A DNA stretch of 24,450 bases. It comes from a virus. Both the position numbers and the translations under genes were made by a program. The notes beneath the pieces are model-generated. The model ran no database searches, was not told where the DNA came from, and saw only the letters and a list, made by a program, of their open reading frames with translations. Numbering within the stretch: the first letter of the stretch is position 1; each line of letters begins with the position of its first letter. The stretch lies in IMG/VR virus record IMGVR_UViG_3300032006_000079, positions 1-24,450 of that record; one strand, given 5' to 3'. This document shows, one piece after another, positions 14,777 to 17,712 of this stretch.

Positions 14777-15452
14777 CATAATAATCTTTAGTAAGGATCT
14801 TTGCAAGGCGTGCATTCATCAATGCCATATCTTCATCAAGATCTTTAGCAGCGAACGCATCTTTAATTGTTTGCCAATTATAACCTGTCTTCTCAAACAA
14901 CGCTACAGCACGTTTAATACCAATGCCAGGAACGCCGCTATAACCGTCGGTTGCGTCACCGGCAAGAGTCTGAATGTAATGCCAATTTCTACCATCAGTT
15001 TCGTTGATGAGTGTGTATTCTTTGAAGTCATAAAGTGGTCCTGGTATCTGTCTCATATCTTTATCTGGACTTACAATTACATTGCCAGGATATTTAGTAG
15101 CGTAGATGCCCATTGAATCATCAGCTTCTAGTTGAGGCATAATAATTACTTGGTAGTCATCGTGTAATGCTGATATGACTCTTTTGTAGCCACATGGCTT
15201 CTTTCTATTTCGATGCCCTTTATATTCGGGGAAAATTTTCTTCCTAAAATTATCAAAATGGGAGAAGAATAGTATGGCATCAGTAGCTTCACTGAATTCA
15301 TCTCTAATCTTCATTATTTCATGTAGTACTGCCTTATAGGCTTCACTGAATCTACTGGTAACAAGGACTACATCTTCAGCCCAGTCTATCTCATCTTCTG
15401 CTGCTGCACAGCATTTGTAGACGATGAAGTCTGCGTCAATTAGTAGTTTCAT
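14685..15452 (-). CDS. 5'-3' exonuclease (gp6-like)
   Basis: 255 residues with the FEN/T5-type nuclease layout. MKLLIDADFIVYK holds the first metal-binding Asp; FPEYKGHRNRKKP is the arch with basic residues; QLEADDSMGIYA holds the acidic cluster; VIVSPDKDMRQIPG is the D.D pair; and GDATDGYSGVPGIGIKRA is the helix-hairpin-helix DNA contact. In T7, gp6 removes RNA primers and degrades host DNA to feed nucleotide pools, which fits its place beside the RNR operon. The sequence is AT-rich (about 35% GC in one sampled line), unlike the GC-richer RNR genes next to it. The start overlaps the HNH gene by 17 bases. Confidence 0.9.
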   Translation of the reverse strand: MKLLIDADFIVYKCCAAAEDEIDWAEDVVLVTSRFSEAYKAVLHEIMKIRDEFSEATDAILFFSHFDNFRKKIFPEYKGHRNRKKPCGYKRVISALHDDYQVIIMPQLEADDSMGIYATKYPGNVIVSPDKDMRQIPGPLYDFKEYTLINETDGRNWHYIQTLAGDATDGYSGVPGIGIKRAVALFEKTGYNWQTIKDAFAAKDLDEDMALMNARLAKILTKDYYDDKRRVPILWTPKTDNRDDSGTRSGTKEVL

Positions 15453-16056
15453 TTTTTGTCATAATAGCTTTCAGTGCATTACTAATTTGTAGTAACTCTT
15501 CCCATGTAGCAGATCCTTTTATATTATTAGCTTTCCAAGAACAAACCAATAGATTATCTAGTGTATAACCTTTGCTAGAGTCTATTCTATCTAATGATTT
15601 AGCATCTGGAGCTCCTTGTCTGCCTTTCCTTCCATGTTTACCTGATTCAATATGCGTCCATCGGATAGGTATACCCATATATGGACATATATCTACATCT
15701 TTCGCTAATACATCTTCATAGGTTATAGTGAACTCTAAACCCTTTTCCGCAGCCCGTGTCGCAGCATCTCTCAACTGACTGAGACCAGGGTTCTCATTAA
15801 AATGTCTGCACTGCCTCTCAGCCATATGTTTTTTACAGTAGACTTGCATGCCTCCACCTGAACTTCCTCCGGGGCTGAAGTGATCATGAGGTAGCATTGC
15901 TTGGCAATCTGGGCACCACTTATGTGTTGGTGTATATTTATCAGTGTACTTCCGCCCATGTTCGTCCAGCTTTGGACTCTGCTGCAATGGGGATTCTGGT
16001 GTTGTAGAATTCTCCTGCTCTGGCGGCTGAGAATTCGAGGGTGAATTTAATGTCAT
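15436..16056 (-). CDS. HNH endonuclease with zinc-binding N-domain
   Basis: 206 residues. WCPDC (C48, C51) and C74 with the following His and Cys form a probable zinc ribbon. The core has CPYMGIP (C124), SLDRIDSSKGYTLDN (154-168) and CSWKANNIKG, which is the phage HNH (His-Me finger) pattern; the classical first His is not obvious. The gene sits between polymerase and exonuclease, a usual site for free-standing homing endonucleases. Residues 1-38, Ser/Pro/Gln-rich, are encoded over the polymerase C-terminus in another frame. No ATG lies between the polymerase stop and the zinc motif, so the overlap seems real. No ribosome binding site is evident. Confidence 0.82.
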   Translation of the reverse strand: MTLNSPSNSQPPEQENSTTPESPLQQSPKLDEHGRKYTDKYTPTHKWCPDCQAMLPHDHFSPGGSSGGGMQVYCKKHMAERQCRHFNENPGLSQLRDAATRAAEKGLEFTITYEDVLAKDVDICPYMGIPIRWTHIESGKHGRKGRQGAPDAKSLDRIDSSKGYTLDNLLVCSWKANNIKGSATWEELLQISNALKAIMTKNETTN

Positions 16057-17212
16057 TTACATACTTTGTTGTTGTTTGATATTGGAGTTCATCATGGATG
16101 AACGCTAGTTGAGTCGCCTCAAAATAAGGATGAGTGTGGATATAATCATTAGCGATGACCATCCATCTCTTAGCGATAACTCCGGCTGATGATTGAAGGC
16201 AGTAATTCAACGCTTTGTGTGATGAATCAACTTCAATTTTTCTTCCATCGATAGCCCGGATGAAACCCCGTTTTGACGCATCTTTGATAGCTTTAAGTAG
16301 TTTTGCAAGGCCTGGAATGGCGTCGATAAAAGCTCGACGAATCTCTTTACCTTTTGCTCTCGCCTGGTCCTCGGAAAGGCATTGTTCATATGATAGCCCA
16401 ATTTTGATGTCTCCTGCTCCATATAGGAACGCGTATGTTACAGTTTTTACAAGCCTTCTAGATATTCCTATCTTGTCGGCGTTGACTTGATGGATGTCTC
16501 CGGTGAGTAGAATATTACTGTAGCGGCCTCCATCGTAAGGATGTATATAATGGGCGAGCATACGAAGCTCGATACCACTAAGGTCTGCACCCACCATGAC
16601 TTTGTCAGGCGATGCAGTAAAGAGTTTCCTGAAGCGTTCATCTGATGGAACCTGGGATAAGTTTGGGTTTCTGTGTGCACATCTGTGCGTATTTGTTGCA
16701 ACGGAGCAGTGATGATGTATCTTAGACTTCGTAACAAGCTTGAGCCATGCGTTGTTCCCTTCGGAAAGCATCCCTAGCTTCTTGGTCAAGTCCAAGCATT
16801 TGAAGAACATCATCGATATCTCCGTCCCAATCTCCTTTAAAATCACTTCGTCTATCACGGGTTTTCCGGTGGAGGTCATTAATGACGGTTTCCAGCCATA
16901 GTGTGTTGTCAGAATCCATGCGATGTGATCTCTTGATGTAGGGTTTAATTCTTTGAGTCTCGTAAAGGTAGCCCCTCGTATGTAGCCTTGTGTTCGGTTA
17001 TCTCTTTTAGGAGTGAATTCCGTGCCTTGGATTTGAGGGTGCCTTTCTCGTAGTATTTTAACAGTTTCTTCATACTCTTTTTGGAGAGTCTGTGTAAGCT
17101 CCCATGCAGCTCTTTCATCAAATGTCCATCCATTTTCCTCCTGTGTTTGTAATATTTGTGCAACCTGATGTTCTAACGTGACCCAGTCAGGTATGGGTGG
17201 AAGTGGTCGCAT
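15941..17212 (-). CDS. Family A DNA polymerase, polymerase domain (separate frame)
   Basis: 423 residues covering thumb, palm and fingers of a T7 gp5-like enzyme. Motif A is VGADLSGIELR (D210). Motif B is SRRLVKTVTYAFLYGAG, with R252, K256 and Y260 matching T7 R518, K522 and Y526. Motif C is IHDE (D374). Tyr at the 762-equivalent position is the T7-like state. The stretch between the first thumb helix and NPTSRDH is only about 30 residues, so the 76-residue thioredoxin-binding insertion of T7 is missing. The 3'-5' exonuclease domain is in the preceding frame; this frame starts with its own ATG, 40 bases before that frame's stop, shifted by -1. No clear ribosome binding site or slippery heptamer is visible. 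Confidence 0.92.
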   Translation of the reverse strand: MRPLPPIPDWVTLEHQVAQILQTQEENGWTFDERAAWELTQTLQKEYEETVKILRERHPQIQGTEFTPKRDNRTQGYIRGATFTRLKELNPTSRDHIAWILTTHYGWKPSLMTSTGKPVIDEVILKEIGTEISMMFFKCLDLTKKLGMLSEGNNAWLKLVTKSKIHHHCSVATNTHRCAHRNPNLSQVPSDERFRKLFTASPDKVMVGADLSGIELRMLAHYIHPYDGGRYSNILLTGDIHQVNADKIGISRRLVKTVTYAFLYGAGDIKIGLSYEQCLSEDQARAKGKEIRRAFIDAIPGLAKLLKAIKDASKRGFIRAIDGRKIEVDSSHKALNYCLQSSAGVIAKRWMVIANDYIHTHPYFEATQLAFIHDELQYQTTTKYVNDIKFTLEFSAARAGEFYNTRIPIAAESKAGRTWAEVH

Positions 17213-17712
17213 AGTTTAGTTGTAACTTTTACGTCTTGGATACAATAGTCTTCCATCTCTTGACTCCATTCTTTCCAGTCAGTAGTCTTAGAGAATTCTC
17301 CTTTATACTCGCCAAGCCTGTATCCGTAGGCTTCGAGGGAGTGTCGTCCTTTCAAACGACTAGGCATGTCCTTAAACTTTGCTTTGTCTATATCTATAAT
17401 TCTGTTATGATAGAGGCGAGAAAGAATAAGAGTATCAATAACAGTCCCAGTGTAATTGAAGAAGGGATAAAGCTTCCGAATAACTGGGATATCAAAACCA
17501 ATGATATTATGCCCCACGATACTTTCAGCTTGTTCGAGGTACTGGACAGCCCGTACCACAGGCTCCGACATACCTTTACCAGGACATTCATCGTTATAAC
17601 TGGTCGTCTGGTCAGTCTCAGTATCATAGATTGCAATGCAGTGGATCTTGGTAACATCATCTAATAGTCCGTCCGTTTCTAAGTCAAATACGAGTGTCAA
17701 TTTCCTTTCCAA
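17173..17712 (-). CDS. Family A DNA polymerase, 3'-5' proofreading exonuclease domain (separate frame)
   Basis: 179 residues matching the first 190 of T7 gp5. The three exonuclease motifs are intact: D10 and E12 (FDLETDG), D74 (GHNIIGFD) and Y156/D160 (YCIQD). The sequence stops where T7 gp5 passes into the polymerase domain. There is no in-frame ATG: the only usual start after an upstream TGA is TTG at 17712-17710, overlapping the stop of a small gene. Either the polymerase is a true two-subunit enzyme, a frameshift joins the two frames, or one base is missing in the assembly. Both frames being clean and domain-exact favours a true split. Confidence 0.88.
   Translation of the reverse strand: MERKLTLVFDLETDGLLDDVTKIHCIAIYDTETDQTTSYNDECPGKGMSEPVVRAVQYLEQAESIVGHNIIGFDIPVIRKLYPFFNYTGTVIDTLILSRLYHNRIIDIDKAKFKDMPSRLKGRHSLEAYGYRLGEYKGEFSKTTDWKEWSQEMEDYCIQDVKVTTKLCDHFHPYLTGSR

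Follow-up and report, generated by a model that had tools for sequence, protein, structure and literature searches.

The DNA polymerase of phage T7 (gp5) is one chain, and in the MPP-A cyanopodoviruses (Syn5, P60, S-CBP2, and SS120-1) the exonuclease and polymerase are encoded by one continuous gene. In Escherichia coli DNA polymerase III, the proofreading exonuclease epsilon (DnaQ-type) is a separate chain that works with the polymerase chain. A DNA polymerase in two parts has been recorded in P-SSP7 (ORF17A/17B, AFK33156/AFK33157) and S-TIP37 (17A/17B), and the records of both leave undecided whether this is a split variant or a frameshift. A paper on P-SSP7 repeats the note and states that proteomics "confirmed" a putative frameshift or split, a result that is consistent with either (PMC3350473). 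In the MEP401-type phage of OM43, the polymerase also lies in two ORFs; however, it is the polymerase domain itself that is interrupted there, a small ORF separates the two parts, and the authors suspect an intron (PMC10580990).

In the present study, we analyzed a 24,450-base stretch of DNA (positions 1 to 24,450 of the IMG/VR virus record IMGVR_UViG_3300032006_000079; hereafter, the window), the minus strand of which carries the replication module of a T7-like cyanopodovirus. The genes follow one another in the order RNA polymerase, ssDNA-binding protein, endonuclease, primase-helicase, exonuclease chain, polymerase chain, endonuclease VII-like ORF, and gp6-type exonuclease, and then come genes for nucleotide metabolism and structural genes; some of these names are based on gene order and homology to annotated relatives. 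The features at the polymerase locus are listed in Table 1. Both domains of T7 gp5 are homologous to the window chains over their whole length, although the exonuclease and the polymerase lie in separate frames in the window. The gene order, the domain cut, the 40-nt overlap, and the relative frame are the same as in P-SSP7 and S-TIP37, whose proteins are 62-67% identical to those of the window; the split arrangement is already known from these phages and is not new. The MPP-A polymerases are about 40-43% identical and have the same neighbourhood, but their gene is unbroken and lacks the embedded ORF described below. E. coli epsilon belongs to a system with another polymerase family, whereas in the window the exonuclease and the polymerase come from one enzyme, of which the exonuclease was the N-terminal domain. 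The endonuclease VII/HNH-like ORF, which shares 116 nt with the 3' end of the polymerase gene (window 15941-16056, minus strand), is a neighbour and no part of the polymerase.

Table 1. Features of the split polymerase locus in the window
Feature	Position	Strand	Remarks
3'-5' exonuclease chain (DnaQ/RNase H-like)	17173..17700	-	175 aa, TTG start
Polymerase chain (family A; thumb, palm, fingers)	15941..17212	-	423 aa, ATG start
Gene overlap, dual coding	17173..17212	-	40 nt, both frames constrained
Polymerase start codon ATG	17210..17212	-	kept as ATG/TTG/GTG in all 126 clusters
Exonuclease stop TAG	17173..17175	-	from polymerase-frame Leu(YTA)-Glu(GAR)
Embedded ORF	16945..17133	-	+1 frame of polymerase codons 27-88, 62 aa
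AGGAGG, Shine-Dalgarno-like	17137..17142	-	3 nt before the ATG of the embedded ORF
Endonuclease VII/HNH-like ORF	15436..16056	-	phrog_1035, E 2.5e-25

The exonuclease chain is the equivalent of residues 1-182 of T7 gp5 (E 7e-21) and matches PF13482, phrog_17, and phrog_403. Upstream of motif Exo I, TTG is the only start codon in its frame, at 17712 or 17700. The TTG at 17700 appears to be the better candidate, in agreement with the N-termini of the relatives, with 17712 as the alternative. A TTG start is ordinary here, because GTG and TTG starts are common in the relatives (ATG in 71, GTG in 29, and TTG in 18). The motifs of a DEDDy 3'-5' exonuclease (D6, E8, N65, D70, Y152, and D156) are invariant in 119 sequences. 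The polymerase chain matches PF00476 and T7 gp5 (E 2.5e-48). In 105 sequences, its residues D210, K256, Y260, and H373-D374 in Pol motifs A, B, and C vary hardly or not at all. On its own, this chain is predicted to form a complete domain (pLDDT 89), the model of which superposes from residue 1 onto residues 194-200 to 704 of T7 gp5 (Z up to 38). Because residue 1 of the model aligns with gp5 194-200, the cut lies at the exonuclease/polymerase border. These results bear out the original prediction, made from the window alone, of a split exactly at this border with the motifs on both sides intact; its description of an exonuclease frame that has only a TTG start and ends 40 nt past the polymerase ATG in the -1 frame was confirmed by the coordinates. 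In three public genomes, S-RIP1 (L009), P-GSP1 (L020), and NATL2A-133 (L023), the polymerase is continued in another frame past motif B, from about residue 270. These changes are probably sequencing errors, although their common position is odd.

We compared 193 loci, namely 188 in which the two genes overlap at the junction, four continuous MPP-A loci, and one (L035) in which the halves are apart. The polymerase ORF of the window is in the -1 frame relative to the exonuclease, which ends 40 nt inside it. The same frame relation was found in 188 of 188 non-MPP-A overlap loci, with overlaps of 40, 52, or 34 nt, and this is far beyond chance. Clustering at 92% identity gave 126 junctions, all of which start the polymerase with ATG or, rarely, TTG or GTG; L069, whose entry in the junction table is shifted by one codon, also has ATG. 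The exonuclease residue over the polymerase start is Cys (TGC/TGT) in 87 clusters and Trp (TGG) in 38. These residues are dissimilar and have just TG in common, and no others occur, as the TG required by a polymerase start would dictate. Furthermore, the exonuclease uses TTC for F167 in 106 of 119 sequences (background 41%), TAC for Y170 in 112 of 114 (50%), and CTG for L171 in 111 of 119 (12%), and these near-fixed wobble bases are first positions of the polymerase frame. Leu13 of the polymerase is YTA in 92 of 95 sequences against a background of 30%, which preserves the exonuclease stop; as the sequences are related, binomial-style contrasts such as these overstate the significance. Grounds for trusting the signals are the use of clusters, the near-saturation of synonymous sites elsewhere in the polymerase gene, and the control genes. 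The codon constraints at both sites imply that the polymerase start and the exonuclease stop are under selection. The tree is compatible with a single origin of the split.

In L035, a complete gene for a C5-cytosine methyltransferase (687-1526, 279 aa; PF00145, E 9e-50) lies between the exonuclease and polymerase genes, which it overlaps by 13 nt and 26 nt, respectively. The polymerase keeps its ATG and N-terminus, and the exonuclease tail is without the Cys/Trp-coding TG at the site of the old start codon. A close sister, L042 (94.5% identical in the exonuclease and 89% in the polymerase), has no methyltransferase insert and keeps the 40-nt overlap. With this gene between the halves, fusion by frameshifting is impossible in L035. 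Although L035 is one metagenomic contig, its sequence is as expected of two independently started chains.

The comparative evidence indicates separately initiated chains, and neither decay nor programmed frameshifting. We consider it very probable that a polymerase of the T7 gp5 type was split once at the domain linker and that its two parts have since persisted as overlapping genes for such chains. The single division at the exonuclease-polymerase linker would have occurred in an ancestor of the P-SSP7-like (MPP-B) cyanopodoviruses. The exonuclease chain would be translated to its own stop, and translation of the polymerase chain would begin separately, 40 nt before that stop, at the conserved ATG (in rare cases TTG or GTG). 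Translational coupling to the exonuclease is the likely route, since 125 of the 126 clusters lack a Shine-Dalgarno sequence ahead of the polymerase start. The two chains presumably reassemble non-covalently by way of the former contact between the domains; the result would be a proofreading polymerase with the exonuclease as a subunit, a role like that of epsilon in DNA polymerase III. With two chains, the idea that a family A replicase can have its proofreading subunit as a free-standing protein becomes open to direct test.

Programmed -1 ribosomal frameshifting in the overlap, which would produce the full-length polymerase and leave the exonuclease alone as the unshifted product, is offered in the GenBank notes for P-SSP7 and S-TIP37. 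Several observations would fit frameshifting: the polymerase is in the -1 frame without exception, the overlap has a constant length, a CCACCC-type run is present in about half of the relatives, and a fusion of the two halves would be similar to T7 gp5 in its linker. However, a strict X XXY YYZ heptamer was found in just 3 of the 126 cluster overlaps and, as originally noted, is missing from that of the window; no slippery position is conserved, and no weaker site is kept in all 126. The RNA fold at the junction is unremarkable. The conserved start codon and the dual-frame constraint from the ATG onward also speak against frameshifting, as does L035, in which the start-codon constraint is gone and both genes persist. 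Moreover, a stop lies two codons upstream of the polymerase ATG in the window, which leaves a stretch of only about 43 nt for a -1 shift. We regard programmed frameshifting as quite improbable; a minor fusion product may arise via non-canonical frameshifting. The note "split variant or programmed frameshift" persists in public records, and our comparison largely answers it in favour of two chains. Taken by itself, a fusion gene that is broken and begins with TTG has the appearance of decay, but catalytic motifs that are invariant in both chains across all clusters, long frames, purifying selection, and a conserved junction leave hardly any probability that the polymerase is a pseudogene. The original prediction had likewise preferred two chains to decay, and the conservation of the junction, start, and stop in about 126 clusters and the gene between the halves of L035 agree with it. 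This part was right, but the arrangement had already been recorded in P-SSP7 and S-TIP37, and the embedded ORF was missed.

Loss of one base from a continuous gene by an assembly or sequencing error would give the same picture, and continuous genes do appear, on the surface, in EF535232 (S-CBP1; L204) and EF535233 (S-CBP3; L205), two older single-gene records of the 2007 era. However, when either is compared over its full length with the genome record of the phage concerned, the only difference is a single extra base, which sits at the same point of the overlap in both. The genome records of S-CBP1 and S-CBP3 and the environmental loci show the split, on which 188 loci from many assemblies and isolate genomes agree. 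The extra base may be a difference in sequencing or may reflect how the depositors interpreted their data; for the clade, the error reading has already been refuted by independent genomes, and we rate it as very improbable overall. Many genomes leave one or both polymerase halves unannotated. Since DNA polymerase serves as a field marker for these phages, the continuous-gene records and the missing CDS matter for annotation.

Within the polymerase gene, synonymous change is clearly depressed only at the exonuclease overlap and, inside the embedded ORF, at codons about 27-73; it dips weakly around codons 146-165. The ratio of observed to expected synonymous change is 0.596 for codons 27-71 (z -16.7); random sets drawn elsewhere gave 1.06 (sd 0.028), and no 45-codon window downstream of codon 73 is below 0.918. 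The helicase, used as a control, has no dip like this one; as a yardstick, a ratio of 0.61 was obtained for the 3' end of gp6, where a further ORF of the window overlaps it. The +1 frame is open over the stretch in 104 of 105 sequences, and stops in it are at 0.03-0.30 of the number expected from synonymous shuffles. ATG is found at polymerase codon 27 in 92 of 96 sequences, versus 51 expected from the shuffles. Among the clusters, the start is ATG in 121 of 126, via His CAT, Asn AAT, or Tyr TAT, unlike residues that have the needed letters in common (NAT codons). Where the residue is His, the codon is CAT in 108 and CAC in 3, against a background of 906:878. A Shine-Dalgarno-like motif precedes the ATG in 50 of 126 relatives.

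To judge from these patterns, the embedded ORF is probably an overprinted gene. An ORF of about 51-62 codons from polymerase codon 27 most likely makes a small helical protein; the products are mostly 51-62 aa, with the consensus MDGxLMxxLHGNLxxLSEESxKxLxxYYxTGxLSLxDRxxLLNEIT, and three helices are predicted with moderate confidence (pLDDT 71). No significant family match was found in Pfam or PHROGs, Foldseek gave no PDB match for this moderate-confidence model, and no such gene was found in the open-licence literature. GU943054 is the sole inspected record that annotates the ORF, as a hypothetical protein; the records of P-SSP7 and S-TIP37 do not.

One alternative is that the constraint at codons 27-71 reflects an RNA or DNA signal and not a protein. 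The mean folding z of -0.75 is slightly below shuffles, as a structure would have it. However, constraint is confined to the third positions of the polymerase codons, equivalent to second positions in the +1 frame, and positions 1 and 2 vary as much here as in the rest of the gene, which argues against RNA structure; the openness of the frame with its few stops, and the start maintained through NAT codons, also count against such a signal. We therefore consider it unlikely, if somewhat less so than frameshifting at the junction. Readthrough of the exonuclease into the embedded ORF, which is in the same frame, was considered and rejected: many relatives have extra in-frame stops at codons 17 or 21, the synonymous constraint is back to about 1.0 at codons 14-22, and L035 retains the embedded ORF despite its separated exonuclease and polymerase.

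The embedded ORF is absent from Tangaroavirus (9515-10a and its kin), a branch that likewise has the split. It takes one change on the tree to account for the split and one for the embedded ORF. Most simply, the embedded ORF would have arisen after the split, with loss in Tangaroavirus as an alternative. Polymerase residues 56-73 align to about residues 253-310 of gp5 in the sequence alignment, with about 16 residues where gp5 has about 56; residues about 254-309 of gp5 are presumably the site of the thioredoxin-binding insert in the thumb. We think it likely that a conserved gene, overprinted after the split on codons 27 to about 78-89 at the equivalent of the thioredoxin segment, encodes a three-helix protein that might act with the two-chain polymerase. 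Its involvement with the replicase is a guess from its location only. If translated, the embedded ORF would add a gene, hitherto unrecognised, to a virus group that is abundant in the ocean, and would do so inside that group's widely used marker gene; the split and the embedded gene, if true, would together represent a remodelled replicase in these phages.

Other stop-poor stretches in alternative frames of the polymerase gene, +2 at codons 98-160, +1 at 201-250, and +1 at 282-320, are not claimed as genes. They are open in 62, 74, and 87 of 105 sequences, respectively, and show no synonymous suppression, except weakly at codons 146-165. A +2 ORF at polymerase codons 98-163 (window 16722-16919, minus strand) has an ATG or GTG start at codon 98 in most relatives.
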